Source: Taeniopygia guttata
Taxonomy: Eukaryota > Chordata > Aves > Passeriformes > Estrildidae
Length of the DNA: 64,000 nucleotides
Reading direction: 5' to 3'
NCBI RefSeq assembly: GCF_048771995.1
Contig: NC_133037.1
Span: forward strand, 5,001 to 69,000
The notes beneath the pieces were generated by a model, which saw nothing but the letters and a program-made list of their open reading frames with translations, was not told the origin of the DNA and searched no databases. How positions within the stretch are numbered: the stretch's first letter is position 1; every line of letters starts with the position of its first letter. Position numbers and translations under genes: made by a program. Below, piece by piece: positions 1 through 32,249 of this stretch.

Positions 1-2862
1 CCCTAACCCTAACCCTAACCCTAACCCTAACCCTAACCCTAACCCTAACCCTAACCCTAACCCTAACCCTAACCCTAACCCTAACCCTAACCCTAACCCT
101 AACCCTAACCCTAACCCTAACCCTAACCCTAACCCTAACCCTAACCCTAACCCTAACCCTAACCCTAACCCTAACCCTAACCCTAACCCTAACCCTAACC
201 CTAACCCTAACCCTAACCCTAACCCTAACCCTAACCCTAACCCTAACCCTAACCCTAACCCTAACCCTAACCCTAACCCTAACCCTAACCCTAACCCTAA
301 CCCTAACCCTAACCCTAACCCTAACCCTAACCCTAACCCTAACCCTAACCCTAACCCTAACCCTAACCCTAACCCTAACCCTAACCCTAACCCTAACCCT
401 AACCCTAACCCTAACCCTAACCCTAACCCTAACCCTAACCCTAACCCTAACCCTAACCCTAACCCTAACCCTAACCCTAACCCTAACCCTAACCCTAACC
501 CTAACCCTAACCCTAACCCTAACCCTAACCCTAACCCTAACCCTAACCCTAACCCTAACCCTAACCCTAACCCTAACCCTAACCCTAACCCTAACCCTAA
601 CCCTAACCCTAACCCTAACCCTAACCCTAACCCTAACCCTAACCCTAACCCTAACCCTAACCCTAACCCTAACCCTAACCCTAACCCTAACCCTAACCCT
701 AACCCTAACCCTAACCCTAACCCTAACCCTAACCCTAACCCTAACCCTAACCCTAACCCTAACCCTAACCCTAACCCTAACCCTAACCCTAACCCTAACC
801 CTAACCCTAACCCTAACCCTAACCCTAACCCTAACCCTAACCCTAACCCTAACCCTAACCCTAACCCTAACCCTAACCCTAACCCTAACCCTAACCCTAA
901 CCCTAACCCTAACCCTAACCCTAACCCTAACCCTAACCCTAACCCTAACCCTAACCCTAACCCTAACCCTAACCCTAACCCTAACCCTAACCCTAACCCT
1001 AACCCTAACCCTAACCCTAACCCTAACCCTAACCCTAACCCTAACCCTAACCCTAACCCTAACCCTAACCCTAACCCTAACCCTAACCCTAACCCTAACC
1101 CTAACCCTAACCCTAACCCTAACCCTAACCCTAACCCTAACCCTAACCCTAACCCTAACCCTAACCCTAACCCTAACCCTAACCCTAACCCTAACCCTAA
1201 CCCTAACCCTAACCCTAACCCTAACCCTAACCCTAACCCTAACCCTAACCCTAACCCTAACCCTAACCCTAACCCTAACCCTAACCCTAACCCTAACCCT
1301 AACCCTAACCCTAACCCTAACCCTAACCCTAACCCTAACCCTAACCCTAACCCTAACCCTAACCCTAACCCTAACCCTAACCCTAACCCTAACCCTAACC
1401 CTAACCCTAACCCTAACCCTAACCCTAACCCTAACCCTAACCCTAACCCTAACCCTAACCCTAACCCTAACCCTAACCCTAACCCTAACCCTAACCCTAA
1501 CCCTAACCCTAACCCTAACCCTAACCCTAACCCTAACCCTAACCCTAACCCTAACCCTAACCCTAACCCTAACCCTAACCCTAACCCTAACCCTAACCCT
1601 AACCCTAACCCTAACCCTAACCCTAACCCTAACCCTAACCCTAACCCTAACCCTAACCCTAACCCTAACCCTAACCCTAACCCTAACCCTAACCCTAACC
1701 CTAACCCTAACCCTAACCCTAACCCTAACCCTAACCCTAACCCTAACCCTAACCCTAACCCTAACCCTAACCCTAACCCTAACCCTAACCCTAACCCTAA
1801 CCCTAACCCTAACCCTAACCCTAACCCTAACCCTAACCCTAACCCTAACCCTAACCCTAACCCTAACCCTAACCCTAACCCTAACCCTAACCCTAACCCT
1901 AACCCTAACCCTAACCCTAACCCTAACCCTAACCCTAACCCTAACCCTAACCCTAACCCTAACCCTAACCCTAACCCTAACCCTAACCCTAACCCTAACC
2001 CTAACCCTAACCCTAACCCTAACCCTAACCCTAACCCTAACCCTAACCCTAACCCTAACCCTAACCCTAACCCTAACCCTAACCCTAACCCTAACCCTAA
2101 CCCTAACCCTAACCCTAACCCTAACCCTAACCCTAACCCTAACCCTAACCCTAACCCTAACCCTAACCCTAACCCTAACCCTAACCCTAACCCTAACCCT
2201 AACCCTAACCCTAACCCTAACCCTAACCCTAACCCTAACCCTAACCCTAACCCTAACCCTAACCCTAACCCTAACCCTAACCCTAACCCTAACCCTAACC
2301 CTAACCCTAACCCTAACCCTAACCCTAACCCTAACCCTAACCCTAACCCTAACCCTAACCCTAACCCTAACCCTAACCCTAACCCTAACCCTAACCCTAA
2401 CCCTAACCCTAACCCTAACCCTAACCCTAACCCTAACCCTAACCCTAACCCTAACCCTAACCCTAACCCTAACCCTAACCCTAACCCTAACCCTAACCCT
2501 AACCCTAACCCTAACCCTAACCCTAACCCTAACCCTAACCCTAACCCTAACCCTAACCCTAACCCTAACCCTAACCCTAACCCTAACCCTAACCCTAACC
2601 CTAACCCTAACCCTAACCCTAACCCTAACCCTAACCCTAACCCTAACCCTAACCCTAACCCTAACCCTAACCCTAACCCTAACCCTAACCCTAACCCTAA
2701 CCCTAACCCTAACCCTAACCCTAACCCTAACCCTAACCCTAACCCTAACCCTAACCCTAACCCTAACCCTAACCCTAACCCTAACCCTAACCCTAACCCT
2801 AACCCTAACCCTAACCCTAACCCTAACCCTAACCCTAACCCTAACCCTAACCCTAACCCTAA
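1..2862. repeat. Terminal telomere, (CCCTAA)477
   Basis: This is an uninterrupted run of CCCTAA, 477 copies, on the strand given. The G-rich TTAGGG strand is therefore the minus strand and runs 5' to 3' toward base 1, as expected for the left end of a chromosome. TTAGGG is the vertebrate telomere repeat, bound by shelterin. The first departure is CCCTTGA at 2,863. The true end may lie beyond base 1. Confidence 0.99.
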
Positions 2863-4088
2863 CCCTTGACCCTAACCCCTAACCCCTGACCCTAACCCCT
2901 GACCCTAACCCTAACCCCTGACCCTAACCCCTGACCCTGACCCTAACCCTGACCCTAACCCCTGACCCTTGACCTTGACCCCTGACCCTTGACCCCTGAC
3001 CCTTGACCCCTGACCCTTGACCCTTGACCTTTGACCCCTGACCCTTGACCCCCTGACCCTTGACCCTTGACCCCTGACCTTTGACCTTTGACCCCTGACC
3101 TTTGACCCCTGACCCCTGACCCTTGACACCTGACCCCTGACCCTTGACACCTGACCTTTGACCCCTGACCCTTGACCCCTGACCCCTGACCTTTGACCTC
3201 TGACCCTTGACCCCTGACCCTTGACCCCTGACCTTTGACCCCTGACCCCTGACCCTTGACCCCTGACCCTTGACCCCTGACACCTGACCTTTGACCCCTG
3301 ACCCTTGACCCTTGACCCCTGACCTTTGACCTTTGACCCCTGACCTTTGACCCCTGACCCCTGACCCTTGACACCTGACCCTTGACACCTGACCTTTGAC
3401 CCCTGACCCTTGACCCCTGACCCCTGACCTTTGACCTCTGACCCTTGACCCCTGACCTTTGACCCCTGACCTTTGACCCCTGACCCCTGACCCTTGACCC
3501 CTGACCCCTGACCCTTGACCCCTGACCTTTGACCCCTGACCTTTGACCCTTGACCCCTGACACCTGACCTTTGACCCCTGACCCTTGACCCCTGACCCTT
3601 GACCCCTGACCTTTGACCTTTGACCCCTGACCTTTGACCCCTGACCCTTGACACCTGACCTTTGACCCCTGACCCTTGACCCCTGACCCTTGACCCCTGA
3701 CCTTTGACCCCTGACCTTTGACCCTTGACCCCTGACACCTGACCTTTGACCCCTGACCCTTGACCCCTGACCCTTGACCCCTGACCTTTGACCTTTGACC
3801 CCTGACCTTTGACCCCTGACCCTTGACACCTGACCCCTGACCCTTGACACCTGACCCTTGACCCCTGACCCCTGACCTTTGACCTCTGACCCTTGACCCC
3901 TGACCTTTGACCCCTGACCTTTGACCCCTGACCCCTGACCCTTGACCCCTGACCCTTGACCCCTGACCTTTGACCCTTGACCCCTGACCTTTGACCCCTG
4001 ACCTTTGACCCCTGACCCCTGACCCTTGACCCCTGACCCTTGACCCCTGACCCCTGACTCCTGACCCTTGACCCTTGACCCCTGACCC
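2863..4088. repeat. Telomere-variant array of 7-base words (TGACCCC, TGACCCT, TGACCTT)
   Basis: After a short mixture of CCCTAA and CCCTGA the sequence becomes a run of mainly 7-base words: TGACCCC, TGACCCT, TGACCTT and occasional TGACACC. The words are arranged in longer blocks that recur: the block beginning TGACCTTTGACCTCTG appears at 3,187, 3,425 and 3,873, so segments of roughly 220-240 bases were themselves duplicated. A 7-base period has no stop on the minus strand in any frame, which explains long open frames there; they are not genes. Confidence 0.95.
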
Positions 4089-12300: not shown

Positions 12301-14987
12301 ATACTTCCAGAGGACTCACAAGCACAGGAAACAGAGTCCATCAGCCGGTTGGTGACGGGGGATTGGCGTATTCCGACTGCATTGCCTAAAGCACAAAAAA
12401 TGAGAAACGATGCTTAGATTCGCACCAAAAACTGAAACCTGAGCAAAAATAACTGATTCTGCTCACCTTGGACACTTGCCCTTGACTGCTACTATCTGCC
12501 TGGACCTCCTAAAAATAAAGGCAAAGAACACTGCTGTAACACAGTCACCATTTAAGCTTCCCCTGCAAATACAAACAATGACTGACCTGCTCAAGGCAAC
12601 ACCCTCAACCAGGACTACGGCGCTCTGCCACAGATTTGAACTGTCTGCATCTGAAGGGAAGTTAGAACTAGTGTCAAATGGCGGCAGGACAACTTAACAC
12701 CACCGAACATGTTATGTCAATCTCCTAATACACTCTAGAGCCCAACTACACCCTGCATTACCAATTTCAAGTCCCCAGGACTTGTGCTACTACAGGCTAT
12801 GCAGCAGGGCAGAGCAGGGCCAGGACTCATATGTGCAGACACCCGTGACACAGGACAGGACAGGGAGAGAGAGCTTTTGATGAGAAGAAAGGACTGAGAG
12901 ACCCAAAGAACACAGGGTGCAACAGAGACAAGTGACAGGACACACACCAGAACTGCTCTGCCCTGCGCACCTCAGCACTGTGATCAAAAGAAGCACTTTC
13001 CCTTTAGGCATCCTAATGGGACACTTCTTGCACATGGCCGCCTCCCAAAGCTGATTCAAAAGACCCTCCCAGCGCCTCGCTTTCATGCCCTCTGTGGGCC
13101 TTAGTCCTCGACTTATCTCACAGGCATCTGGGGATGAGAATCCATGTCGCGTGCGAATGGAGGCCGCTTTGCCTGCTGGGCATGTCCTATGGTCAGCGGG
13201 CTGTGGTCCTTTGCTCAGCTACAAGCAAGAACACCAAATATCACTGCATGATCTTAGCTGCACAATGGACAAAACCCAGCAATTCTACTACTCACCATTC
13301 TCCTAAGGAGGCCTGGTTGCTCGGGCCGCACACTTAGGCCATGCTCGGAGGCTGCCACCGTCATCACAGGGTCTGCCTGGGTTAAGAAGAGACAAAGTGA
13401 CTCAGCAACGCTGAAAATTAAGTGGACCTTGGCTCCCCCTCCCTACCTCGGCGTCTCACCGCAACTCCTCGGCCATTGCCAAAGGCTCCCCGGATGCCAT
13501 CTTGAAATACAAAATTTCAAGGCTTCATCACAGAGCCCTGAAATACTTCCAGTGGGCTCACAAGTGCAGGAAACCCGGTCCATCGGCCAGTTGGTGAAAG
13601 AGGCTACGCATACTCCGAGGGGATTCCCTAAAGTACACAAACAAGAATGGATGCTTAGAGTTGCACCAAAAACTGAAACCTGAGCAAGAACAACTGCTTC
13701 TCTCCACTGCTCACCTGGCACACTGGGCCTTGACTGCTGCTATCTGCATGGACTTTCTAAAAATAAATGCAAAGAACACCGCTGTAACAAAGTCACCGCT
13801 TAGGCTTCCTAATGCTAACAATGACTGATCTGCTCCTGACAACACCCTCACCCAGGACTGATGCCCTCTGCCACTGATTTGAACTGTCTGCATCTGAAAG
13901 GAAGATAGGACTAGTGTCAAACGGCGGCAGGACAACTTAACACCGCCAAACATATTATGGCAATCAACTAATACAATGCAGAGCACAACTACACCCTGCA
14001 TTACAAATTTCAAGTCCACAGGACTTGTGCTGTTACAGGCTATGCAGCAGGGCAGAGCAGCTCCGGGACAAATATGTGCAGACACCCGTGACACAGGACA
14101 GGACGTGACAAACGACGGGACAGGAGAGGGAGAGAGAGCTTTCGATGAGAAGAATGTGAGCAAGGACCGAGAGACCCAAAGAACACAGAGTGCACCAGAG
14201 ACAAGTGACAGGACGCATACCGGAACTGCTCTGCCCTGAGCACCTCAGCACTGAGATCAAAAGAAATACCTTCCCTTTAGGTGGCCTAAGGAGACGCTTC
14301 TTGGACATCCCCATCTCCAAAACTGACTCCAAAACCCCTTCTGGGGAGTCCCAACCCAGCACCCCGCTTCCATCTCCTCTGCAGTTTTAGCCCTAGACTT
14401 ATTTTGCACATATCTGGGGATGCAAATCCCCATTGGGTGCAGAAGGAGGCCTCTATTCCCGTCTCCAGGCCGTGGCCCCAACTTATCTTTTGGATGCCTG
14501 GTGCTATGAATCCATGTTGGACCTAAAATGAGTCTGCCTCGGAGGTGATCGCCTGTTAGTCTCTCAGTCAGCTAAAATAATGAACCTGAAAATCAATGGT
14601 TGAGTTTAGTGTTACATGGACCAAATCCCAATAAGTCAGCTACTTATCCTCTCCTGAGTGTGCCTGGGTCCTCAAGTCTCCAACTTCATCCTGAGTCTAA
14701 GGTATAGCTGTTATTAGAAAGGCAAAGTTACATGACATTTCTGTGAGTTCAGTGGATAAGTTTGTGTGCTATATGACACACGGATGCCTCTGCTATGCTT
14801 GTGAAAGGCCTTGCAAATAGACACCGTTTCTCACCCTACCGCCTACAAACCCCTACCACAGTAGCCCCTAACCAGGTACCCTGCTCACTCTCCCTCTCCT
14901 AGTCACAATCCTCAACTCACCTGAAGCCTCTATCTCAGACATCATCTTTGACACAGGGCAGATCCCTTTTGTGACATGATGAATTTG
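9251..14987 (-). CDS. Predicted multi-exon cassette gene, copy A (unknown product)
   Basis: The product is not recognised. On the minus strand a short exon with ATGATG (start at 14,945) ends in phase 1 at a GTGAGT donor. It is followed by about four ~1.27-kb cassettes with short splice-flanked segments, then four terminal exons (9,733-9,777; 9,614-9,631; 9,469-9,504; 9,251-9,387) whose phases join correctly to a stop. Most exons are phase 1-1 and multiples of three, as in modular repeat proteins. Against coding: one Cys-rich exon has an in-frame TGA, another has a one-base deletion, an 81-nt exon ends in TAG, and a 42-nt exon is closed in phase 1. No signal peptide is visible at the predicted N-terminus. 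It may be a decaying gene or a spliced non-coding RNA. Confidence 0.35.
9469..9504 (-). CDS. Predicted 36-nt exon, phase 1-1
   Basis: The acceptor TTTTTCATTTTGCAG and donor CAG/GTGAGC frame 36 nt reading ILQAACGVKIS in phase 1-1. It joins in frame to the terminal exon. In segment B (about 25,560-25,605) the exon reaches GTGAGC after 41 nt, which shifts the frame. Confidence 0.4.
9614..9631 (-). CDS. Predicted 18-nt microexon, phase 1-1
   Basis: The acceptor TTTGTTTTTTTGCAG and donor CTAG/GTGTGT frame 18 nt reading AVTAL in phase 1-1. The same exon is intact in segment B. Exons this short are hard to call by eye. Confidence 0.25.
9733..9777 (-). CDS. Predicted 45-nt exon, phase 1-1
   Basis: The acceptor TTTGTTTTATTGTAG and donor CCAG/GTGGGT frame 45 nt reading TPLARCLSSGYPRP in phase 1-1. 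Segment B keeps it at 25,833-25,877 as SPLARCLWSGCLKP, same length and frame, with several amino-acid changes. Confidence 0.35.
10749..10829 (-). CDS. Cassette exon (VPCNDG type), unit A1
   Basis: An 81-nt exon with acceptor CTTAACCTAG... preceding GTGTACCC and donor GAATG/GTTAGT. In phase 1-1 it reads VPCNDGIRIQADLKRAGQ and on to EEN without a stop. The B-segment version (VPCNDGVRIQADLKRPGQ) is nearly the same in frame. Confidence 0.35.
10911..11077 (-). pseudogene. Cassette Cys-rich exon, unit A1, one-base deletion
   Basis: Splice sites are kept (acceptor TTTTTGTGCTTTAG, donor GTGAGT), but the exon is 167 nt rather than 168 because of a one-base deletion near its 5' end. The downstream frame WLMDQVSCTCDLAGS and GPCDGAFQFCISRS is open but out of phase with the predicted phase-1 entry. 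Confidence 0.4.
12055..12134 (-). pseudogene. Cassette VPC-type exon, unit A2, 80 nt
   Basis: Acceptor CTTAACCCAG and donor GAATG/GTGAGT are kept. The exon is 80 nt, so it breaks the phase 1-1 pattern; the first codons (RTCDDGGS) still resemble the family. Confidence 0.3.
12218..12385 (-). pseudogene. Cassette Cys-rich exon, unit A2, in-frame stop
   Basis: Length (168 nt) and splice sites are kept, but the codon that is TGT in the other units (GPCDEA) is TGA here (GLxDEA). Inclusion of this exon would truncate the protein. Confidence 0.4.
13296..13376 (-). pseudogene. Cassette VPC-type exon, unit A3, in-frame stop near its end
   Basis: This is 81 nt with acceptor CTTAACCCAG and donor GAATG/GTGAGT. 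The phase-1 frame reads RPCDDGGSLRAWPKCAAR and then meets TAG three codons before the donor. Confidence 0.3.
13460..13627 (-). CDS. Cassette Cys-rich exon, unit A3, intact
   Basis: A 168-nt exon, phase 1-1. Acceptor is TTGTGTACTTTAG; donor is GTGAGA. The reading includes SFTNWPMDRVSCTCEPTGS, then SGLCDEALKFCISRWHPGS, then WPRSC. Conserved features across units are W-(P/L)-MD-(R/Q)-V-x-C, G-S-I-(T/S)-G-x-C-D, FCISR and WP-x-x-C. I do not recognise the domain. Confidence 0.4.
13715..13756 (-). other. Cassette 42-nt exon-like segment (ends TGCCAG/GTGAGC)
   Basis: A strong acceptor (TTTGCATTTATTTTTAG) and donor (CCAG/GTGAGC) frame 42 nt in every unit. In phase 1 it contains TAG in the units checked, while another frame (KSMQIAAVKAQCAR) is open. 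If spliced in between phase-1 exons it would stop translation, so it is a poison exon, an alternative exon, or evidence that the RNA is non-coding. Confidence 0.35.
13852..13893 (-). CDS. Cassette 42-nt exon (ADSSNQW type), unit A3
   Basis: Acceptor TATCTTCCTTTCAG, donor CTGG/GTGAGG, 42 nt, phase 1-1, reading ADSSNQWQRASVL. A B-segment copy at 28,663-28,704 reads ADSSNLWQWAPVL with the same splice sites. In several other units the donor is changed (GGGTGG, ATAAGG, TGCGGT). Confidence 0.35.
14921..14987 (-). CDS. Predicted ATG exon, copy A
   Basis: The acceptor CAACATTTTTTCAG is followed by a short leader and ATGATG (first ATG at 14,945). The frame is MMSEIEAS and ends in phase 1 at CTTCAG/GTGAGT. 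Copy B keeps the exon, start, frame and donor at 34,815-34,881 (MVSEIEAS). An upstream ATG in the exon (ATGTCACAAAAG) opens a frame that stops after 11 codons. Confidence 0.4.
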
Positions 14988-15084
14988 CTGAAAAAATGTT
15001 GTACTCAACATGATCTGGAATTACAGGAAGCTACTCCCCCTTAAAAAAAAAAAAAAAAAATCAGAAAATACAAAAGCACCTTAC

Positions 15085-15268
15085 CACCCCAGAATGCATA
15101 ACCCCAAATCACAAACTTAAATACTCCCTGTGTTCAACGTTGTTTTCTTCACAGTATCTTCAAAGCCTCTGTTGCATTTAAAGCCCAAAAGAACAAGCTG
15201 GGATAAGCTGAAAGAGCCTCTTCACCAAAATGAGAGGAGAGCTCTTACCCCCACTGATCCCAGGGAGG
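15085..15268 (-). other. Predicted 5' leader exon region, copy A
   Basis: This lies between a minus-strand TATA-like box and a GTAAGG donor at 15,084. A second donor, GTAAGA at 15,248 (GTAAGT in copy B), could give a shorter leader. A T-tract acceptor region (the A18 run at about 15,043-15,060) lies just downstream. Transcript ends are inferred from TATA spacing only. Confidence 0.3.
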
Positions 15269-15295
15269 GAATGAAGCCCCTTGAAAAGGCTGGGG

Positions 15296-15378
15296 TTAAT
15301 ATACCCCTGATTGGGCCCGCCTCTCATTCCCATGACACCCAGGAAAAGGGAGGGGGCAAACCCCACCGGGCATAAAAG
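15296..15378. promoter_or_regulatory. Divergent two-TATA promoter, copy A
   Basis: The minus strand has CCAAT (15,310-15,314) immediately upstream of TATATTAA (15,296-15,303). The plus strand has CATAAAAG (15,371-15,378). Between them lie GGGCCCGCCTC and GGGAGGGGGC. Segment B preserves all of this at 35,208-35,290. Divergent use is inference; the minus direction leads into the cassette gene. Confidence 0.5.
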
Positions 15379-15399
15379 CCCTCAGAGCAGCTACTGCTG

Positions 15400-15523
15400 T
15401 TTGGCTCCTCTGATTTGAATTCAAAGAGAATAAAGGGCTTGATATAGAAGAAAACTCTTCAAGGAAATGACAGCGCTTTCTTTTTTTGCTACAAATACTT
15501 GGAGCAAAAGGGCAAGAAAACCG
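15400..15523 (+). other. Possible plus-strand first exon from the divergent promoter
   Basis: About 30 bases after CATAAAAG a plus transcript would begin near 15,403; a donor ACCG/GTAAGA lies at 15,524. No protein-coding frame is convincing. In segment B about 150 bases including this donor are missing (junction near 35,403), so any plus transcript differs between copies. Confidence 0.2.
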
Positions 15524-15819
15524 GTAAGAAATAAAACTTTGTTTTTAGGCAGCGTTTCTAGATAAGTTGGATAATTTGCTGTTAACTTATATAATTATTC
15601 CTCAGTGACTTCTAAGTAGTACTCAACGTGAGACTAAGGGTGGAGAAGAATACTAATTATATGAACTGTCTAAGTCTCCTTGGAGCTACTAATTAGGGCT
15701 AACTACATTATAAATAAATATAAGAAAAGAAATGGGCTCCTGGGCAGCATAAAGGTTAAGTACATGCTAGGCTTGCCTTTCCCTGAGATATTTAGTCCTA
15801 GGGCACAGAAAGAAGTGCC

Positions 15820-16350
15820 CTGAAATGTAGTTTTAAACCCTTAAAATGCTGAAAAAGCATTTTAGAACAGGCTCCTTCAGGTGAATCCTTTAAAATGAGG
15901 AAATGGGGAATTTACCTCCACTGAAATGGATACAATGGCAAATAAATGGCTTCTGCCTTTTAATTTAATCCCCTAGAATATTGGGAAAACAGAAGTTTTC
16001 CTCGTTTTAAATCTCTGCAATAATGAAAACAGAGGGATCTTCCACTCAATCCAAGCCTTTAAGAAAGAGGAATAGCTGGGCTTCCCCCTCAATTTAAGCT
16101 TTAGGACAACAAAAAGGGTTACCCTTAATTCAAACCCATAAAAAAACCTTGTCTAGGTTTTCCCCTTCTATTTAAATTGGAAAATAATGGCAAATGGGGA
16201 TTCCCTGTCAATTAACACCCCTAACAGCATAGAAAAGACGGGGCTTCTTTCAACCGAGACCATTAAAATTGCAGGGGAAGTGCATTCCCTCATGATTTGA
16301 ACACAAAAAATAATGGAAAAGGAAGCTTTTTCCCATAAGTTAAACCCCTT
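15820..16350. repeat. Degenerate ~60-bp tandem repeat
   Basis: Loosely repeated phrases (TTTTCCCCTCAATTTAAACC, TTAAAATAATGGAAAA, GGGGAATTTACC) recur about every 55-65 bases. The same structure is in segment B (35,570-36,120). No gene was seen in it. Confidence 0.45.
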
Positions 16351-16675
16351 CTGTCTTCATAACCCCTGTCTTTTCTGGGAGTGCTGTGGAATGTCTGGGA
16401 GTTCTAGGGAGGGACTGACGCAATAAAAGGGGAAAGTTGAAAGCTCTCCCGTGGAACCCCACGTGCTGCCCGGCCTGCTCGGGTGCTGCCCCTTGGCAAG
16501 AGGTCTCTTCCCTCGGCATTTTTTCAAAGGGACGCTCCGTGCTCAGGTGGGTCACACTGCTCCCCGCTCCCTGCTGGATGTTCCGACCGTAGTTCCTGGA
16601 GGGACGCTTGGGATACCCCTGTTAGCCCCTCTGGATTAGCAGCTCCCTGTGCAGGTGTGCCCAGGTAGCTGCACT

Positions 16676-20985: not shown

Positions 20986-21066
20986 CAAAGCCTTACCCTA
21001 AACTGAACCCTAAATCCTAACCGAAACACAAACCCTAACCCTAATCCTAACCTAACCCTAACCTCA
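20986..21066. repeat. Short interstitial telomere-like sequence
   Basis: CCCTAA, CCTAA and CCCTAAAT words run from the TTACCCTAAACTGAACCC phrase to CCTAACCTC in the same orientation as the terminal telomere, with many interruptions. It directly precedes the CpG island. Confidence 0.75.
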
Positions 21067-21119
21067 AATAAATCTAATATTAATAATACCTCTAAATTTA
21101 AACTTAAAAATAACAGTAA

Positions 21120-21885
21120 CCCTAGAAAATGGCGGAGCCCACGGCATCACGTGAAAGGAGCAATGATGGCGGCGCCCACGGCATCACGTAAACGAGGCAA
21201 ATATGGCGGCGCCCATTGAATCACGTGATGTAAGCAAATATGGCGTCGCCTACTACATCACGTGACGGGACAAAGATGGCGGCTCCTACTACAACACGTG
21301 ATGAAAGCAAATATGGCGCCCCCCACAGCGTCACGTGATTGGAGCAAATATGGCGTCGCTTACTACATCACGTGACGGGACAAATATGGCGGCGCCTGTG
21401 TAGTCATGTGACAAGGTCAACTATGGCGGCGCCCGCTGCATCACGTGATTGAGTCAAAGATGGCCGCGCCCAGAGAATCACGTGATGGGGCAAAGATGGC
21501 GATTTTCGGGACGGGGTCGATTTTGGCGGTTTTTGGCGGTTTTTTGTGTGCCCTCCGCACGCCCTGCGTGCCGTGGTGCTGTTCCGGTGCACCCGCACCG
21601 GAGGACGCCGCGCGGGATTATTTTTGGAGTGCGGGATTTGTGTCGGAATTTCGGACAGGCGGCTGTCGGGGCGACTAATGCTTGGGGTCTTTTCTGAGGC
21701 GCTGGGGGCGGTGCGAGGGGAGGGGTCGGGGCACCGACGTGGTGACGTCACGCGGTGACGCGACGCAGGGGCGGGCCAGAGGGAGGCGTGGGTGCAGTGC
21801 GCGAATTGCAACGGCAGGTGGCGCTGCGAGACCGAGGGCTGGGCGCGCTGCCGGCCGGCGGCTGTGGGGGCAGAGCGCCTGTTTG
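21120..21885 (+). promoter_or_regulatory. CpG-island promoter between the subtelomeric segments
   Basis: The island is GC- and CpG-rich. It begins with the YY1/E-box array, continues with two E2F-like TTTTGGCGG sites (21,521-21,539), a perfect CRE TGACGTCA (21,743-21,750) and a CTCF-core match CAGGTGGCGCTG (21,815-21,826). The plus-strand orientation of the YY1 sites favours rightward initiation; minus initiation toward the telomere is also possible. Short open frames (for example 21,445-21,678) follow the array but have no recognised product; AATAAA appears on plus near 21,919. Confidence 0.6.
21126..21501 (+). repeat. Tandem ~37-bp array of alternating YY1 and CACGTG sites
   Basis: Ten units of 36-38 bases each contain (A)AxATGGCGxC, the core YY1 site, and in most units TCACGTGA, the palindromic E-box of USF and MITF/TFE factors. 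An eleventh ATGGCG ends the array. The two site types keep a near-constant spacing while the bases between them vary. A few E-boxes are altered (CACGTAA, CATGTGA, AACACGTGA). Confidence 0.9.
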
Positions 21886-21957
21886 TGCAATTCTATCCTT
21901 GTGATGTTGATTTATTAAAATAAAAATATGGATATTGATCTAGTACCGATATCCAAC

Positions 21958-22581
21958 TGTGACAGACAAAAACTCTTTAACAGTTTGAAGTTAGAAAGTG
22001 TATGTTTATTCGACACCCAGCAGCATGTGGGATAGTTCCCAAATACACACCACACTTTCCAAGTGATTAAAGAGCCCTTTTATCCATACAAGTACTGAAT
22101 ACCGAAAATACAAATACCTATTCATTTTGGTACATCCCATTCCTTGCTTCATATGCTAATCATTTCAAAAGCTATTAAGCATGAAGTTTGTTCCCTGAAA
22201 TGGGTCAGTGGTCTCTTTCATGGGGATGAGTCCCAAAATGTGGAAGTAAATGAAGTCTTCCTCATTCTGGCCTTTCTACCGTTTCAATGCAAATATGACA
22301 AATGAACTCTTAGTAGAACTCCCATTCCTTGTCTTCAGTTGATTTCAGAACAGAGGAGGCCCACAATTGTCTTATGCTCCTAAAATCTATTTATCCGTTT
22401 CTATATTCTTCATTATAAACACAGCTAACTAAACATTGTGCTGACAGGCAATCAATTACTAGTTAACTACTCACTCTTAACTTTATCAAGGCCTACTCAT
22501 TTATTTTAATTAACTCTAGTAAGGCTTGTCTTTAACTAAAATCTTAGCTCCTCTAAATCCCTTAAAATTTATGTTTCAACA
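21958..22581 (-). mobile_element. Solo LTR, minus orientation, avian ERVL-like
   Basis: Read on minus it starts about TGTTGAAACATAAATTTTAA and ends CTGTCACA. AATAAA is at 22,005-22,010 near its 3' end, the expected place for a polyadenylation signal. The body matches what I remember of avian ERVL LTRs. No internal viral genes are attached. Target-site duplications were not found, so boundaries are approximate. Confidence 0.6.
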
Positions 22582-22728
22582 TGATGAACTCTTGGTTGTA
22601 TCATTATTCGTCTGGTGGGGTTGATGGGAGTACTGGTTGCTGTGTATTGCTACTGTTACCTGCCAGCTGGATCGCTAATTAGGGGCCCTATATCTATTAG
22701 GAAAAAGAAGAAAAACAATATGTCTGGT

Positions 22729-22848
22729 GCAGCAGTAGAAAATTTCAGGCTCCCAGCAATTAAATAATTTTCTTTAGATAATTATTTAAAGGTTTGGTTG
22801 TTTTTGGTTTTTTTTTACTCCCAGGGAGCCTGAAAGTTTTTACTGCTT
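22729..22848. repeat. Hairpin at the start of segment B
   Basis: The left arm GCAGCAGTAGAAAATTTCAG plus GCTCCCAG pairs imperfectly with a right arm at 22,817-22,848. A nested inverted repeat (TAAATAATTTTC / GATAATTATTTA) lies inside. It is the counterpart of 4,751-4,859. Confidence 0.7.
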
Positions 22849-22854
22849 TTTTTT

Positions 22855-23290
22855 TTAAAGCTGGAAAGGAAAGCAGAGTTAGAAATAAAGGTAGAAATAG
22901 AGAGAAACAAAGGGTTAAAAAAAGTTGAAGTTGGAGAGAAAAAGAGAGACTGAAAAAAAAAGAACTACGAAAACAGAGGCAAACAGTGAAAACAAAAAGA
23001 GTGAAAAATGAGCAGGGTTAGGGTGAAAAAGAAAGTGAGTAAAAAAGAGAAAAAAAAAGTTAAAGCTAGAGAGAAAAAGAAATAGTAAAGTATAAACTAT
23101 AGAGAGAAAAATAAATAGTTGGAAACAGAGGAAGAAAGAAAAAAAAAGCAGGAAATAGAGAAGCAGAGAGACAGAGTTAGAAACAGTGAGAAATAGAAAC
23201 ACAGAGTTAGGGACAGACAGAAATTAAGTCAGAAATAGAAAAGAAAGATGAGAAGCAAAGGAAGAAATACAGTGAAAAAAAAATTACTGA
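22855..23290. repeat. Purine-rich tract, segment B
   Basis: A/G-rich on plus, less regular and shorter than 4,861-6,060. Open frames on minus rich in Phe/Leu/Ser are compositional. Confidence 0.8.
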
Positions 23291-23720
23291 ACCACATCAA
23301 AGAAAGACAGGAGCCAAAGCTGGAAGGTGAGGGAGCAGGGGCATCATTACTAGAGTTGATTCAACTTTACTGAATGAATTTTTTTATTTACACTTCAGCA
23401 AAACACATGGAAACAATGGATACAAATACAAGTACAGATACAATCCATAGACATGCATAGATACAGAGCAATACATGGAAATGCAGCAGCAATGGCAAAT
23501 ACAGAACAACACAGGGCAATAGAAACCAAACACATATCAACACAACATGATCCTTTTTTCTATTTTAATTACATTTTGTTTTATTGTTAGAGGAAACACA
23601 AAACAAAGATTACACACACAAAACAACACTCATCCACCACGAGCACCTCCTTCATGTTACACACAAACTCACCATCGCTCTCATCTCAACTGCTCCGTTA
23701 CACCCCAGAAATCATTGTTC
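23291..23720. other. Non-coding stretch, counterpart of 6,061-6,526
   Basis: AT-rich and CA-rich sequence with no gene seen. The distal AATAAA of segment A reads AGTAAA on minus here (about 23,365). Confidence 0.4.
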
Positions 23721-23960
23721 CTCGGGAACGTGGCTCCCGGGAGCCTCCAAAAAATCCTCCTTGACAAAAACCCTGGTCTGGGGATGGTCTGTGGCCCAAC
23801 CTTAGTGATGAATGTCACCTCGTGGACTGGCCAGGACAGAGGAAAAAAACCCAGCCAGGGGGTGGCGGGGGGGGGAAAAAACCCCAGCTGGGGATTTTTT
23901 ATTCTAAATTCAAAAATGAGTTGAAAAACCTGAAAGGCAAAGGCCATACACACAGGGTTA
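23720..23960 (-). terminator. Single decayed hairpin-plus-AATAAA module, segment B
   Basis: One copy of the ~355-bp module. AATAAA on minus is kept at 23,898-23,903. The hairpin is damaged: CCAGCTGGGG and CCCAGC remain but the long perfect arms of segment A are lost, with a G-rich insertion in the loop. Confidence 0.4.
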
Positions 23961-24364
23961 ACACCGGTCAGCATACGCTCAGACCTGCAGACAGGAGCAC
24001 ACACAAACTTCTCACAAACAGATACAGACAATCACACTTTTGCTGACACGCTGAATGCCACCCTTATGTCAAACACTACGCTGAAGAATATGCTTCGACA
24101 CATCTTCTGACTGCCGCTCCTCGACGTCAAATGGTAGATTCCAGGAAATTCTGTAGGGACCCAGAGACCCACAAGACAATGGGAGGCAGTCAATGACTGA
24201 CTATCTGACAGCTAGGAGCTATTCCCACTCTGGGCCCGTCAGTGTTGTACCCAAAACCCCATACAAGACAGATGAACTGCGAATTTTTGCAACTGCTCTA
24301 CCTAAGCGTCACTACGTGCCGGGACAGGGCAGCTCCGATCGTAATTGGCACAACAGAGGCTCGT

Positions 24365-24475
24365 ACAACATAAGCCAAGGTAGGTACATACAATATAAGT
24401 GCACACATTATAAGCCAACATAGGTAGGCACAACATAAGCACATATAATATAAGCCAACAGAGATACAATATAAG
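24365..24475. repeat. Remnant of the 40-bp minisatellite
   Basis: Only about two units of the ACATAAGCACATA...ATATAAGCCAACA repeat are present, against about a dozen in segment A. Confidence 0.75.
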
Positions 24476-25345
24476 TGAGGACTTGACATAACTCTCCAGA
24501 AGATTAATTCTTGACCCTATACCCTTTGAGAAGGCGGAATCTACAGAATTACTGCGGTCACATGATGAGTGTCTAATATGCTCCATATAGAAGTCCAAGA
24601 GAATGGCATGGGAAGAGAAGGCGCTACCAAAGGTGAGAAGAAAGATGGATGAGAACATCTCATGTACATCTTCCTGTCCCAAAAAGTAAAAATGTAAATA
24701 TGCCAGAATAAGTGATATCCAGGAAGGTACGTGAGTAAAATACAGCCAATACAGCACAGAATGATGCTGCTAAAGCATGGAGATGTAACAAAGGCCTACG
24801 ACACAGAAATCAGTGGACACGGAAAAGATGACACTGGACACAGACACCATGATACGGACACAAGTGGAAACTGCCTGGCAGTTCCACCTTATGGACCCCA
24901 AGATTCCTAACCCAAGATGAGCCATGGGCTGATGAAGCCAAAGGAAAGAAAGAACTAGGGCAATACCACATGATGGTGAAAGGCAACTCCTCTCAAGATG
25001 TTAGTGCCAAAGCACTTAAGAGGAAGCCTAAACAGCTCAGTAAGTCCAGAGAAGGAAGCAATGACTACGGGGTGACCATGGCTATAGCTCCAGACATGCA
25101 GGCAGGCTCCTCAAGTGAAAATATCCACGATGACATCAAGAGTCATAGAAGGCCGCTGATGCAAACCTCATGAGAATGCGGAGACGGATCGGAACGGCCC
25201 TGGCCGGCAAAGACTCCGGTGAGGCTGAGGAGAAACCCTCTCCCTTTGCCCCCAAGGGGCCCATTCCACTATCGGCCTCTCCTCTAAGTTAACATCAAAT
25301 TGCCTCCTGTGATAGTAAAGGTTTTTCCCCCATCTCCCACCAACT
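24476..25345. other. Unique block of segment B, no gene supported
   Basis: Counterpart of 8,429-9,250. A plus frame at 24,970-25,173 aligns with the plus frame at 8,881-9,198 but differs at about 19 of 67 positions, largely at former CpG sites, and ends early. I do not call a gene. Confidence 0.35.
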
Positions 25346-25832
25346 GGTCCCAGCACTTAGCTTTTGCAAGACAACAGGACAGAATCCAATGTCAGTTGGA
25401 TGCGGACGGGGAGATGTTCTCTACATCTGCTTCAGTGCTGCCAGTTCCAAACTTCAGCTACGCACCTCCTCGGGGTACCTAAGACAAAACGGAAAATGCA
25501 ATTAGTGCCCATCAAAGGAGGAATCCCCGGAACTCAGACACACCGCTGCCCCAGCTCACCAGAAAACTCGATTTGACTCCACAGGCTGCTTGGAGGACAC
25601 CTGCAAAATGAAAAGGTACACGCTTGGCATGCTGCTGCATAACGGTCACCTATGAGTGACCGTGCCTAAATGCCAACTCACCCGCTTGCCTCTGTTCCTT
25701 CACACACCTAGAGCAATGACAGCACCTGCAAAAAAACAAAGCAAAAACACCAAACCCACACTGAGATACTGCAAAAACACCACCCCCCTGACTCGAAAAG
25801 TACACCCACCCAGACCTTAAGCTTGCACCCAC

Positions 25833-25877
25833 CTGGCTTCAGACATCCAGACCAGAGACATCTTGCAAGAGGACTGC
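25833..25877 (-). CDS. Predicted 45-nt exon, copy B
   Basis: Acceptor TTTGTTTTATTGTAG, donor CCAG/GTGGGT, phase 1-1, open (SPLARCLWSGCLKP). It matches 9,733-9,777. Confidence 0.3.
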
Positions 25878-26999
25878 CTACAATAAAACAAAGTAACCCA
25901 GAGTGGATGCTTAGAATTGCACCAGAAATTGAGACAGGAGCCAGAACAACAGCTTCTGTCCACTGCTCACCTGGCACACTGGGCCTTGACTGCTCCTAGC
26001 CACCTGGACTTCCTAAAATTAAACACAAAGACAAGCGCTGTAACACAGTCACGATGTAGGCTTCTTCTGCAAACACAAACCATGACTGACCTTCTCAGGG
26101 AAGCCCCCTGACCGGAGCAGGGCACACCGCCACAGAGTTAATGCATCTGCATCTGAAAGAAAGTTGGGAGAAAATTCAAACAGCTGTAGGATAACTTAAC
26201 AGGTCAAAATATCTAGTGTGAATTTAGGAATACTATCTTGAATGCAATTACATGCCCCACGCAAAATTGCAAATCTCTGGGATTGGTGCAATTACACAAG
26301 GCTACGCAGCAGGACAGAGCAGCTGAGGGACAAATAAGCGCAGACACCCGTGACACAGGACAGGACAGGAAAAACAAAAGGACAGGACAGGGAGAGAGAA
26401 CATTTGACGAGAGGAATGTCTGCAAAGACCAAGACACCCAAAGAAAACAGAGTGCACCATAGACAAGTGACAGGACACACACCAGAACTGCTCTGCCCTG
26501 TGCACCTCAGCACAGAGACCAAAACAGACACTTTCCCTTTAGGTGGCCTAAGGGGATGCTTCTTGGACATCCCCATCTCCAAAATTGACTCAAAAACCCC
26601 TCCTGCGGAGTCCCAACCTGGCACCTCTCTTCCTTCCCCTCTGTGGGTCATAACCCTTGACTTATCTTGCACATATCTGGGGATGCAAATCCTCATCAGG
26701 TGCAGAAGGAGGCCTCCTGCCGGTCAGGGAAATTCCAGTTGTCACCAGGCTGTTCCCTCTTGGTCTGACAAGAGAAAGAAAACCAAACATCAGTGCACAA
26801 CCTTAACAGTACATCGGCCAAAACCTGACAATTCTGCTACTCACCGTTTCCTAAGAATGCTCGGGCCACGCACCTCAGGCGTGCTTGGAGGACGACGCCT
26901 TCAACACAGGGTACACCTAGGTTAAGTGGAGACAAGGTGACGCGGCATTGCTGAAACTTCAGAGGACCCTCGCTCCTCCTCCCAACCTCCCCAACTCAC

Positions 27000-27167
27000 C
27001 ACAACTCCTCGGCCATTCCTCTGGGCTACCAGGAGAAGACCTTGAAATACAAAATCGGTAGGCTTCATCACAGGGTCCTGTAATACTTCCAGAGGGCTCA
27101 TAAGTGCAGAAAACCCGGTCCATCGGCCAGCTGGTGACAGGGGCTTGGCATACTCCCAGTGGATTCC
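27000..27167 (-). CDS. Cassette Cys-rich exon, unit B1
   Basis: A 168-nt exon, phase 1-1, with a strong acceptor (TTTTTTGTTTGTGTGCTTTAG) and donor GTGAGT. The frame starts NPLGVCQAPVTSWPMDRVFC, continues TYEPSGSITGPCDEAYRFC and ends ISRSSPGSPEEWPRSC. There are four or five cysteines in about 56 residues. The domain is not recognised. Confidence 0.4.
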
Positions 27168-28265
27168 CTAAAGCACACAAACAAAAAAGCATGCTTACAG
27201 TTGCACCAAAAACTGAAACCTGAGCAAGAACAACTACTTCTCTCCACTGCTAACCTGGCACAATGGGCCTTGGCTGCTGCTATCTGCCTGGACTTCCTAA
27301 AAATAAAGGCAAAGAACACCACTGTAACACAGTCACCATTAAGGCTTTCCCTGCAAATGCAAACAATGACCTGCTCATGGGAAGTTCCTTATCCAGGACT
27401 GGAGCCCACTGCCACAGATTTGAACTGCCTGCATCTGAAAGGAAGTTAGAACTAGTGTCAAAAGGCTGCAGTAAAACTTAACAGTACCAAACATGTTATG
27501 GCAATCTCCTAATACAATCTAGAGCCCAAATACACCCTGCATTACAAATTTCAAGTCCCCAGCACTTGTGCTATTACAGGCTATGCAGCAGGGCAGAGCA
27601 GCTCCGGGATGAATATGTGTAGACACCCGTGACACAGGACAGGACGTGACAAAGGAGGGGACAGGAGAGGGAGAGAGAGCTTTTGATGAGAAGAAAGGAC
27701 CGAGAGACCCAAAGAACACAGAGTGCACCAGAGACAAGTGACAGGACACACACCGGAACTGCTCTGCCCTGTGCACCTCAGCACAGAGATCAAAACAGAC
27801 ACTGTCCCTTTAGGTGACCTAAGGGGATGCTTCTTGGACATCCCCATCTCTAAAACAGACACAAAAGCCTCTTCTAGAAAGTCCCAACCTGGCACCCCAC
27901 CTCCATCCTCTCTGTGGGTCATAACCCTCCACTTATCTTGCATGCATCTGGGGATGCAAATCCCTGTTGGCTGCAGAAAAAGGCCGTCTACCTGTCTGGT
28001 AAGTTCCAGCTGTCGCCTCTTGGTCTGCCGAGAGAAAGAAAACCAAACATCAGTGCACAGTCTTAACAGCACATCTGCCAAAACCTGATAATTTTGCTAC
28101 TCACCATTCTCCTCAAAATGGACATGTACTTGGCCTGGACGCTTCAGGTCTGCTTGGATTCTGACGCCGTCATTGCAGGGTACAGCTAGGTTAAGTGGAG
28201 ACAACGTTACATGGCATTGCTGAAACTCGAGTGGACTCTCACTCCTCCCTACCTCACCGACTCAC

Positions 28266-28433
28266 TGCAACTCCTCGGCCAGTCGTCTGGGCTACCAGGA
28301 GAAGACCTTGAAATACAAAATTGGTAGGCTTCATCACAGGGTCCTGTAATACTTCCAGAGGGCTCATAAGTGCAGAAAACCTGGTCCATCAGCCAGCTGG
28401 TGACAGGGGCTTGGCATACTCCTAGTGGATTCC
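28266..28433 (-). CDS. Cassette Cys-rich exon, unit B2
   Basis: 168 nt, phase 1-1, same acceptor type and GTGAGT donor. It differs from B1 at a few positions, such as SWLMDQVFC and PDDWPRSC. Confidence 0.4.
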
Positions 28434-28662
28434 CTAAAGCACACAAACAAAAAAGCATGCTTACAGTTGCACCAAAAACTGAAACCTGAGCAAGAACAAC
28501 TGCTTCTCTCCACTGCTCACCTGGCAGACTTGGCCTTGACAGCTGCTATCTGCCTAGACCTCCTAAAAATAAAGGCAAAGAACTCCACTGTCATAGAGTC
28601 ACCATTTAGGCTTCCCCTGCAATTGCAAACAATGACTGACCTGCTCATTGGAAGTTCCTCAC

Positions 28663-28704
28663 CCAGGACTGGAGCCCACTGCCACAGATTTGAACTGTCT
28701 GCAT
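28663..28704 (-). CDS. Cassette 42-nt exon (ADSSNLW type), unit B2
   Basis: Acceptor TAACTTCCTTTCAG, donor CTGG/GTGAGG, phase 1-1, ADSSNLWQWAPVL. In the alternate cassettes (near 27,400 and 29,940) the donor reads ATAAGG and is probably dead. Confidence 0.3.
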
Positions 28705-29540
28705 CTGAAAGGAAGTTAGGACTAGTGTCAAACAGCTGCAGAAAAACTTAACAGTACCAAACATGTTATGGCAATCTCTTAATCCAGTCTAGAGCCCAAT
28801 TACACCCTGCATTACAAATTTCAAGTCCCCAGGACTTGTGCTGTTTCAGGCTATGCAGCAGGGCAGAGCAGCACCGGGATGAATATGTGCAGACACCCGT
28901 GACACGGGACAGGACGTGACAAAGGAGGGGACAGGAGAGGGAGAGAGAGCTTTAGATGAGAAGAAAGGACTGAGCGACCCAAAGAACACAGAGTGCACCA
29001 GAGACAAGTGACAGGACACACACCGGAACTGCTCTGCCCTGTGCACCTCAGCACAGATATCAAAACAGACACTTTCCCTTTAGGTGGCCTAAGGGGATGC
29101 TTCTTGGACATCCCCATCTCCAAAACAGACACAAAAACCCCTCCTGCGGAGTCCCAACCTGGCACCTCTCTTCCATCCCCTCTGCGGGTCGTAACCCTTG
29201 ACTTATCTTGCACATATCTGGGGATGCAAATCCTCATCAGGTGCAGAAGGAGGCCTCCTGCCGGTCAGGGAAATTCCAGTTGTCACCAGGCTGTTCCCTC
29301 TTGGTCTGACAAGAGAAAGAAAACCAAACATCAGTGCACAACCTTAACAGTACATCGGCCAAAACCTGACAATTCTGCTACTCACCGTTTCCTAAGAATG
29401 CTCGGGCCACGCACCTCAGGCGTGCTTGGAGGCCGACACCTTCATCACAGGGTACACCTGGGTTAAGTGGAGACAAGGTGACGCAACATTGCTGAAACTT
29501 CAGAGAACCCTCGCTCCTCCTCCCAACCTCCCCAACTCAC

Positions 29541-29708
29541 CACAACTCCTCGGCCATTCCTCTGGGCTACCAGGAGGGGACCTTGAAATACAAAACCGGT
29601 AGGCTTCATCACAGGGTCCTGTAATACTTCCAGAGGGCTCATAAGTGCAGGAAACCCGGTCCATCGGCCAGCTGGTGACAGGGGCTTGGCATACTCCCAG
29701 TGGATTCC
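29541..29708 (-). CDS. Cassette Cys-rich exon, unit B3
   Basis: Nearly identical to B1, 2,541 bases away; 168 nt, phase 1-1, intact, with SRSPPGSPEEW where B1 has SRSSPGSPEEW. Confidence 0.4.
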
Positions 29709-30806
29709 CTAAAGCACACAAACAAAAAAGCATGCTTACAGTTGCACCAAAAACTGAAACCTGAGCAAGAACAACTACTTCTCTCCACTGCTCACCTGGC
29801 ACAATGGGCCTTGGCTGCTGCTATCTGCCTGGACTTCCTAAAAATAAAGGCAAAGAACACCACTGTAACACAGTCACCATTAAGGCTTTCCCTGCAAATG
29901 CAAACAATGACCTGCTCATGGGAAGTTCCTTATCCAGGACTGGAGCCCACTGCCACAGATTTGAACTGCCTGCATCTGAAAGGAAGTTAGAACTAGTGTC
30001 AAAAGGCTGCAGTAAAACTTAACAGTACCAAACATGTTATGGCAATCTCCTAATACAATCTAGAGCCCAAATACACCCTGCATTACAAATTTCAAGTCCC
30101 CAGCACTTGTGCTATTACAGGCTATGCAGCAGGGCAGAGCAGCTCCGGGATGAATATGTGTAGACACCCGTGACACAGGACAGGACGTGACAAAGGAGGG
30201 GACAGGAGAGGGAGAGAGAGCTTTTGATGAGAAGAAAGGACCGAGAGACCCAAAGAACACAGAGTGCACCAGAGACAAGTGACAGGACACACACCGGAAC
30301 TGCTCTGCCCTGTGCACCTCAGCACAGAGATCAAAACAGACACTGTCCCTTTAGGTGACCTAAGGGGATGCTTCTTGGACATCCCCATCTCTAAAACAGA
30401 CACAAAAGCCTCTTCTAGAAAGTCCCAACCTGGCACTCCACCTCCATCCTCTCTGTGGGTCATAACCCTCCACTTATCTTGCATGCATCTGGGGATGCAA
30501 ATCCCTGTTGGCTGCAGAAAAAGGCCGTCTACCTGTCTGGTAAGTTCCAGCTGTCGCCTCTTGGTCTGCCGAGAGAAAGAAAACCAACCATCAGTACACA
30601 GTCTTAACAGCACATCTGCCAAAACCTGATAATTTTGCTACTCACCATTCTCCTCAAAATGGACATGTACTTGGCCTGGACGCTTCAGGTCTGCTTGGAT
30701 TCTGACGCCGTCATTGCAGGGTACAGCTAGGTTAAGTGGAGACAACGTTACATGGCATTGCTGAAACTCGAGTGGACTCTCACTCCTCCCTACCTCACCG
30801 ACTCAC

Positions 30807-30974
30807 TGCAACTCCTCGGCCAGTCGTCTGGGCTACCAGGAGAAGACCTTGAAATACAAAATTGGTAGGCTTCATCACAGGGTCCTGTAATACTTCCAGA
30901 GGGCTCATAAGTGCAGAAAACCTGGTCCATCAGCCAGCTGGTGACAGGGGCTTGGCATACTCCTAGTGGATTCC
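30807..30974 (-). CDS. Cassette Cys-rich exon, unit B4
   Basis: Same protein sequence as B2 by eye, 2,541 bases away; intact. Confidence 0.4.
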
Positions 30975-32081
30975 CTAAAGCACACAAACAAAAAAGCATG
31001 CTTACAGTTGCACCAAAAACTGAAACCTGAGCAAGAACAACTGCTTCTCTCCACTGCTCACCTGGCAGACTTGGCCTTGACAGCTGCTATCTGCCTAGAC
31101 CTCCTAAAAATAAAGGCAAAGAACTCCACTGTCATAGAGTCACCATTTAGGCTTCCCCTGCAATTGCAAACAATGACTGACCTGCTCATTGGAAGTTCCT
31201 CACCCAGGACTGGAGCCCACTGCCACAGATTTGAACTGTCTGCATCTGAAAGGAAGTTAGGACTAGTGTCAAACAGCTGCAGAAAAACTTAACAGTACCA
31301 AACATGTTATGGCAATCTCTTAATCCAGTCTAGAGCCCAATTACACCCTGCATTACAAATTTCAAGTCCCCAGGACTTGTGCTGTTTCAGGCTATGCAGC
31401 AGGGCAGAGCAGCACCGGGATGAATATGTGCAGACACCCGTGACACGGGACAGGACGTGACAAAGGAGGGGACAGGAGAGGGAGAGAGAGCTTTAGATGA
31501 GAAGAAAGGACTGAGCGACCCAAAGAACACAGAGTGCACCAGAGACAAGTGACAGGACACACACCGGAACTGCTCTGCCCTGTGCACCTCAGCACAGATA
31601 TCAAAACAGACACTTTCCCTTTAGGTGGCCTAAGGGGATGCTTCTTGGACATCCCCATCTCCAAAACAGACACAAAAACCCCTCCTGCGGAGTCCCAACC
31701 TGGCACCTCTCTTCCATCCCCTCTGCGGGTCATAACCCTTGACTTATCTTGCACATATCTGGGGATGCAAATCCTCATCAGGTGCAGAAGGAGGCCTCCT
31801 GCCGGTCAGGGAAATTCCAGTTGTCACCAGGCTGTTCCCTCTTGGTCTGACAAGAGAAAGAAAACCAAACATCAGTGCACAACCTTAACAGTACATCGGC
31901 CAAAACCTGACAATTCTGCTACTCACCGTTTCCTAAGAATGCTCGGGCCACGCACCTCAGGCGTGCTTGGAGGCCGACACCTTCATCACAGGGTACACCT
32001 GGGTTAAGTGGAGACAAGGTGACGCAACATTGCTGAAACTTCAGAGAACCCTCGCTCCTCCTCCCAACCTCCCCAACTCAC

Positions 32082-32249
32082 CACAACTCCTCGGCCATTC
32101 CTCTGGGCTACCAGGAGGGGACCTTGAAATACAAAACCGGTAGGCTTCATCACAGGGTCCTGTAATACTTCCAGAGGGCTCATAAGCGCAGGAAACCCGG
32201 TCCATCGGCCAGCTGGTGACAGGGGCTTGGCATACTCCCAGTGGATTCC
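32082..32249 (-). CDS. Cassette Cys-rich exon, unit B5
   Basis: As B3, with one visible substitution (VSCAYEPSGS for VSCTYEPSGS); intact. Confidence 0.4.

Follow-up and report, generated by a model that had tools for sequence, protein, structure and literature searches.

Why should a subtelomere of Taeniopygia guttata carry a dense and regular array of sites of the kind found in core promoters, next to telomeric DNA that lies inside the chromosome? We addressed this question in a window of 64 kb (the whole stretch of DNA that was analysed), which corresponds to bases 5001-69000 of contig C14, so that the telomere lies to the left of the features described here. A preliminary description of this DNA had proposed that YY1 and CACGTG sites alternate in ten units of about 37 bp, with E2F sites at the end of the array, and motif counts agree. 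Eleven ATGGC[GC] cores lie on the + strand between 21129 and 21496, spaced 36 or 37 bp apart (10 of the 11 read ATGGCG, and 6 of the 11 ATGGCGG); the eleventh, at 21496, is additional to those of the ten units. CACGTG occurs eight times over the ten units, alternating with the cores and in seven of the eight instances as TCACGTGA, and the exact E-box is lost in unit 2 (CACGTA) and unit 8 (CATGTG). Tandem Repeats Finder describes positions 21129-21501 as a repeat of period 37, with 10.2 copies and a 72% match. Two TTTGGCGG sites, which we take to be E2F-like, follow at 21522 and 21532. Judged from consensus sequences, AANATGGCGGC is presumably a YY1-type core and TCACGTGA a USF/TFE-type E-box, and we assume that the factor at CACGTG could be any of several bHLH-ZIP proteins. 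From the local base composition, 376 bp would be expected to hold 0.11 CACGTG and 0.25 ATGGC[GC] by chance, as against the eight and eleven observed, and a chance cluster of motifs was rejected on these grounds.

The array forms the half nearer the telomere of a larger module, in which degenerate CCCTAA repeats, the array and a CpG island follow one another (Table 1). The limits initially given, 21126 to 21501, hold for the array but omit the adjoining island, from 21502 to about 21890; the interstitial telomere DNA mentioned there takes the form of the degenerate CCCTAA repeat at 20991-21063. In 200-bp windows starting at 21100-21700, GC is 0.51-0.73 and CpG o/e 1.07-1.33; array and island together are a CpG island under the definition of high GC and a CpG o/e above 0.6 over at least 200 bp. 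CpG o/e is 1.1-1.3 over array and island, whereas it is 0.0-0.4 in the windows on either side. The + strand of the island is G-rich, with a skew of +0.23 to +0.35, and the skew of the interstitial telomeric repeat is -0.82 on the + strand, so that a telomere-ward transcript would be G-rich too. Two further sites lie in the island: TGACGTCA, presumably a CRE, and a 15-mer resembling CCRSYAGRKGGCRSY, which we take to be the CTCF consensus. At up to one mismatch, the CTCF-like site at 21811-21825 is the sole match in 64 kb, and because 0.73 matches are expected by chance it is not significant alone; we give it weight because other copies of the module keep it. With this one-mismatch site and two of its ten E-boxes affected, the window copy carries damaged sites.

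Table 1. Features of the module and of the chromosome end in the window (positions are those of the window).
Feature	Position	Strand	Details
Terminal (CCCTAA)n telomere tract	1..2961	.	Period 6, 492.5 copies, 99% match (Tandem Repeats Finder)
Degenerate interstitial telomeric repeat	20991..21063	+ (CCCTAA)	Leftward transcript would read UUAGGG-like
AT-rich spacer, telomeric repeat to array	21064..21125	+	Ends AACAGTAACCCTAG
YY1/E-box array, ten 36/37-bp units	21126..21501	+	AANATGGCGGC then TCACGTGA per unit, one orientation throughout
Junction GATTTTCGGGACGGGG and two TTTGGCGG E2F-like sites	21501..21540	+	Motif count; alignment of copies
CpG island body	21502..21890	.	GC 0.61-0.73, CpG o/e 1.1-1.3
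CRE palindrome TGACGTCA	21743..21750	.	In 27/28 copies
CTCF-like 15-mer CCRSYAGRKGGCRSY	21811..21825	+	One mismatch in window copy

Two tandem units make up the subtelomere in this window, and the inner of them bears the telomeric repeat and island at its outer edge. Tandem repeats of about 1.27 kb form two blocks (8317-16661 and 24347-36414), each preceded by a segment common to both (4707-8430 and 22686-24463); ORFs within the 1.27-kb repeats differ at 1 to 9 positions per pair, which does not suffice for a judgement on Ka/Ks. By the terminal tract, a G-rich stretch at 4153-4678 contains GGGTTAGGG, here oppositely oriented, together with numerous GGGGCGGGG boxes, which we take to be SP1-like. 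It occupies the place where the inner subtelomeric unit has the array and island, and may be the actual telomere-proximal promoter of this chromosome end. At 6527-7503, near the chromosome end, a CpG-rich unit of 352 bp is repeated in tandem (2.8 copies at a 95% match, with a CpG o/e of about 0.8-0.9); a further CpG-rich stretch lies at about 8800-9400, and CpG-rich islands at 37201-37800 and 45801-46800, the latter very strong with GC up to 0.77. Three ORFs in or beside these last two islands have no Pfam match.

We searched the assembly (1.14 Gb, 41 contigs) for further copies; the resulting counts are lower bounds. The array as query gave 30 matches, namely 28 places, a second piece of the copy on C15 and a relic (L036), and the island alone gave 28 places identical to these. 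Among the at least 28 places, 25 are near contig ends (24 ends, with two copies on C10) and three are internal, at 0.78 Mb on C37, 4.27 Mb on C20 and 1.55 Mb on C23. The telomeric-repeat side faces the contig end in 25/25 end copies, and the distance to that end is 18-34 kb in 19 of the 25, the others lying at 0.5, 2, 54, 114, 138 and 150 kb. An interspersed retroelement or LTR promoter was rejected, given at least 28 places only, 25 of them at chromosome ends. The preliminary description had called such a density of sites unusual for a subtelomere and had proposed counting the unit at other chromosome ends. For this genome, the count overturns that view: at least 24 contig ends carry the module.

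Comparison of 28 copies (that of the window and L009-L035) shows which parts of the module persist. CCCTAA hexamers occur in the stretch of at most 330 bp telomere-ward of the array in 27/28 copies, being absent in L031, and TTAGGG was found in that interval in 0/28. The island has a CpG o/e of 1.07-1.24 in 28/28, the three internal copies included; the internal islands are 84-89% identical to that of the window, yet keep a CpG o/e of 1.07-1.23. The CTCF-like site is perfect in 18/28 copies, has one mismatch in 8/28 and two in L013, and occurs twice in each of the internal copies L029 and L031; in L011 neither the CRE nor the CTCF-like site was found at the expected place, and array and island are kept. 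An AT-rich spacer comparable to that of the window is present in the older copies L029 and L030. The number of array units differs among aligned copies, and no YY1 core in reverse orientation was found within the array in any of 24 copies examined. About 0.7 kb between the island and the next segment (21890-22582) is missing in L029 and L031, reflecting either an insertion in the lineage of the window's copy or a loss in that of L029 and L031. At the ends of C7, C4 and C2, the arrays of L021, L022 and L023 are at most one base apart and their islands nearly identical, which we read as a probable sign of recent exchange between chromosome ends.

Because the array sits in a larger subtelomeric block common to the ends (with the longest alignment at each locus about 87-98% identical), single module copies are not independent. 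This sharing is what would be seen if the array were a neutral minisatellite riding on the duplicated block, with site conservation and CpG content as by-products; identical islands at some ends and the varying unit number fit the same idea. We therefore consider here how sites and spacers have fared within the unit, since homogenisation alone would not keep some unit columns and not others. Units were cut from 24 of the 28 copies (L032-L035 left out), giving 189 units of 30-40 bp, of which 118 are distinct. A perfect TCACGTGA is present in 76 of the 118 and one with up to one mismatch in 95, compared with 0.3% of shuffled unit tails at up to one mismatch, and the best match lies at one common offset in 102 of the 118. 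Across the 101 distinct units of 36 or 37 bp, mean heterozygosity is 0.07 over the eight YY1 columns and 0.28 over the eight E-box columns, as against 0.47 over all 20 other columns and 0.56 over 15 spacer columns, the last figure omitting five half-conserved columns that flank the YY1 core. With one array per clade (nine arrays, 63 units), the values are 0.08 for YY1, 0.27 for the E-box and 0.56 for the spacer. ATGGC (GCCAT in reverse) is the most constant part of the unit, at 97-100% per column in distinct units, with these columns partly fixed by the unit-finding method; a separate profile alignment gives 99-100%, by a method that likewise favours core-bearing units.

Between close copies, changes amount to 0.0233 in spacers, 0.0177 in YY1 sites and 0.0122 in E-boxes, from pairs that are non-independent and include upstream sequence in several stretches. 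This excess in the spacers is weak, and the small recent difference between sites and spacers is a further point for a neutral minisatellite. Selection on the sites, as originally suggested, thus finds support across the 101 distinct units (0.07 and 0.28 versus 0.56) and little between close copies; the patterns point to clear long-term and weak short-term constraint. Among 12 non-redundant copies, pi is 0.03-0.06 in island windows and 0.02-0.13 in flank windows, and overall, sites aside, the island has not evolved clearly more slowly than the flanks. Variation between copies is highest in the array (pi 0.09-0.24 in the same 12, with units partly misaligned), because units are gained, lost and shuffled.

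The mutation pattern also carries information on germline methylation. Across 21 aligned copies, the ratio of C-to-T and G-to-A transitions at CpGs to those at other C/G is 1.33 for the island, as against 6.39 for the left flank and 4.00 for the right; the array gives 0.65, with units partly misaligned. The low CpG decay in the island compared with the flanks therefore suggests that the island has largely escaped germline methylation. The contrast between a four- to sixfold CpG decay in the flanks and 1.3-fold in the island also argues against a neutral minisatellite, as does the relic L036 (C5:59411600-59412500), a decayed internal copy that shows what neglect looks like: two or three degenerate units, a CpG o/e of about 0.5, and neither a CRE nor a CTCF-like site found. 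We regard L036 as showing, in nature, what becomes of the module once its function is lost, and we consider neutrality very unlikely.

Outside these elements the same pair of sites is rare. The exact pattern AANATGGCGGC-(9 to 14)-TCACGTGA occurs 69 times in the genome, 65 times inside the elements and four times outside, and a reversed control of the pattern occurs 0 times genome-wide. All four outside occurrences are in CpG islands with GC of about 0.8, which look like gene promoters, although some bias towards CpG islands is expected because the motif contains CpGs. The core-promoter reading of the preliminary description is thereby strengthened in part: to the motifs on which it was based can be added a CpG island that appears hypomethylated in the germline, CRE and CTCF-like sites in nearly all copies, and the occurrence of the exact site pair elsewhere at four places, all of them CpG islands.

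These observations also bear on whether the module could act chiefly as a boundary or insulator, where YY1, CTCF and an E-box factor would mark the edge of a domain or an anchor for cohesin, with little productive transcription. A CTCF-like site with up to one mismatch is present in 26/28 copies, and CTCF regions co-bound by YY1 are a known class, described in the title of the source as transcriptionally active (PMC4056453). However, the CRE, the E2F-like sites and the CpG island are features of promoters, the site pair occurs outside these elements in four CpG islands that look like gene promoters, and L011 keeps array and island with no CTCF-like site. We consider an insulator with little transcription unlikely.

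The architecture of the module, the distribution of its copies and the greater conservation of sites than of spacers are direct observations; the proteins bound, transcription, its direction and the role of its product we infer from sequence. On this basis we think it rather likely that the module, which many chromosome ends share, acts in the subtelomere as a CpG-island promoter of non-coding RNA, probably a bidirectional one, and that it works as human 61-29-37 TERRA promoters do, through different sites. Its tandem YY1 and CACGTG sites would recruit YY1 and a bHLH-ZIP factor (of USF/TFE/MITF type) many times over, and these repeated sites would hold the island open and unmethylated. RNA polymerase II would then start non-coding RNA at the module, probably in both directions, with one transcript running centromere-ward across the G-skewed island and the other running across the adjacent telomeric repeat to give a short UUAGGG-containing RNA. 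The CTCF-like site, about 300 bp from the array, would bound the module. A centromere-ward direction is indicated by the orientation of the cores and the G skew of the island (+0.23 to +0.35). AATAAA/ATTAAA lies at 21914-21919, just past the island on the centromere side, and AATAAA is found on the telomere side at 20537, about 0.6 kb from the array; both transcripts may be short, because AATAAA occurs at 21919 and 20537. A structured RNA was rejected, as no Rfam family reached the gathering threshold over the window.

The same orientation of cores and G skew would suit a promoter of a multi-copy protein-coding gene on the centromere side, all the more as a lone AANATGGCGGC site at a gene often coincides with the start codon. 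We think this highly improbable. AATAAA/ATTAAA stands directly past the island, the donor hexamers GTAAGT and GTGAGT are both absent on the + strand between 18500 and 23035, and a reading frame cannot continue across the array, because its units are 36 and 37 bp long. The stretch of about 0.7 kb after the island is absent in L029 and L031, and eight ORFs of the window have no Pfam match, on which ground a protein-coding product was rejected.

The product might more specifically be TERRA, with the main transcript running telomere-ward through the telomeric repeat, as in human 61-29-37 promoters and ITS-type (Type III) regions. TERRA promoters are best known from human cells. Human 61-29-37 TERRA promoters are described as CpG islands in which each 29-bp unit has two putative, methyl-sensitive NRF1 sites, with CTCF at a distance of about 300 bp (PMC6600276). 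Of 46 human ends, 37 are reported to be of the 61-29-37 type, with CAGE tags and H3K4me3 enriched at the 37-bp repeats and CTCF at the 61-bp repeats, and the promoters of human TERRA that arises from internal telomeric repeats are said there usually to comprise 37-bp repeats (PMC12242772). In layout, this would be the nearest known system to the finch module: in both, short tandem repeats whose units bear methyl-sensitive factor sites form a CpG island, with a CTCF-type site a few hundred bp off, a telomeric repeat alongside and copies at many ends, as far as these two sources describe the human case (PMC6600276, PMC12242772). In the finch, the subtelomeric CpG island is repeated at no fewer than 24 contig ends, and the repeats lie on the telomere side of the array in 25/25 end copies. 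The orientation that would permit UUAGGG is seen in 27/28 copies, in which CCCTAA-strand repeats, internal ones and not the terminal tract, lie within 330 bp of the array (62 bp in the window); read telomere-ward, the strand of the interstitial repeat is G-rich.

Several features speak against TERRA as the main product. In the window, about 18 kb separate the array from the terminal telomere tract, every core points away from the telomere, the G skew of the island likewise favours centromere-ward transcription, and a leftward transcript meets AATAAA about 0.6 kb on, at 20537. We regard a TERRA promoter in the strict sense as possible, on balance less probable than not holding. The two systems also differ in code and position, since the finch sites are YY1 and CACGTG and the human ones NRF1, and since the finch module stands about 18 kb inside the terminal tract, beside an old internal telomeric repeat. 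The equal repeat length of 37 bp is probably a coincidence, because the unit sequences look unrelated.

We also aligned the island to a provisional sequence of a human TAR1-type island, which serves in every comparison given here. The window copy aligns on the same strand around the CRE with a score of 33, which is reached by 5/300, 17/500 and 15/500 shuffles and by 0/86 other CpG-rich pieces of the window. Scores are 33-48 for 21 end copies, 19 of them at one human place and two (L016 and L017) elsewhere, and 28 for the three internal copies, where the shuffle mean is about 25. A consensus of the end copies scores 38 against the same provisional sequence, which 11/2000 shuffles reach, or 5/1000 when the CRE is kept and its flanks are shuffled; with the CRE masked, the best human alignment moves elsewhere and is reached by 38/1000 shuffles. 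We treat the similarity around the CRE as a lead only and do not claim homology. A broader idea, which we put forward tentatively and doubt somewhat more than we credit it, is that the module corresponds in birds to the human TERRA promoter, as a promoter dedicated to chromosome ends with a YY1 and CACGTG code in place of NRF1, and is possibly a very distant relative of the human island. It would then stay active even at former chromosome ends now buried inside a chromosome, an element of this idea that we include because the internal copies are still CpG-rich.

Parts of the proposed promoter have parallels elsewhere. We know of no CACGTG partner at Peg3, and the monomers of mouse L1 Tf are far longer than the finch array units. 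The Peg3 imprinting control region (CSE2) is described as having multiple clustered YY1 sites of one orientation in a CpG island, acting as an orientation-dependent activator at a bidirectional promoter; unlike the finch sites, they are irregularly spaced, and Peg3 is a single locus and a gene promoter (PMC2615030). Mouse L1 Tf promoters are likewise built of tandem monomers with a YY1 site in each; the GCCAT core of the YY1 consensus is reported to be needed for monomer activity, and synergy between monomers to depend on YY1 (PMC11602158). Those promoters are the 5' ends of retrotransposons, whereas the finch has a single module per subtelomeric block. By analogy, as far as the two sources go, Peg3 and the L1 Tf monomers show that repeated YY1 sites can activate transcription (PMC2615030, PMC11602158). 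Among birds, PO41 of chicken and quail is also a subtelomeric tandem repeat, with a 41-bp unit, and is described as transcribed from both strands in most tissues examined; the finch array has a 36/37-bp unit and is set in a promoter-like module, the two being compared by description (PMC4301066).

No description of a TERRA promoter in birds, or of this element, was found among the matches listed in a search of titles and beginnings of abstracts in the open literature. If the module is a true TERRA promoter, telomere transcription would become testable in birds, a group with many chromosomes, and a layout of tandem methyl-sensitive sites, CpG island, CTCF and telomeric repeat would recur with a different factor code. 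Amplification of the site pair is in addition an experiment of nature, from which one may learn how DNA in a subtelomere is kept unmethylated by YY1 and E-box factors.
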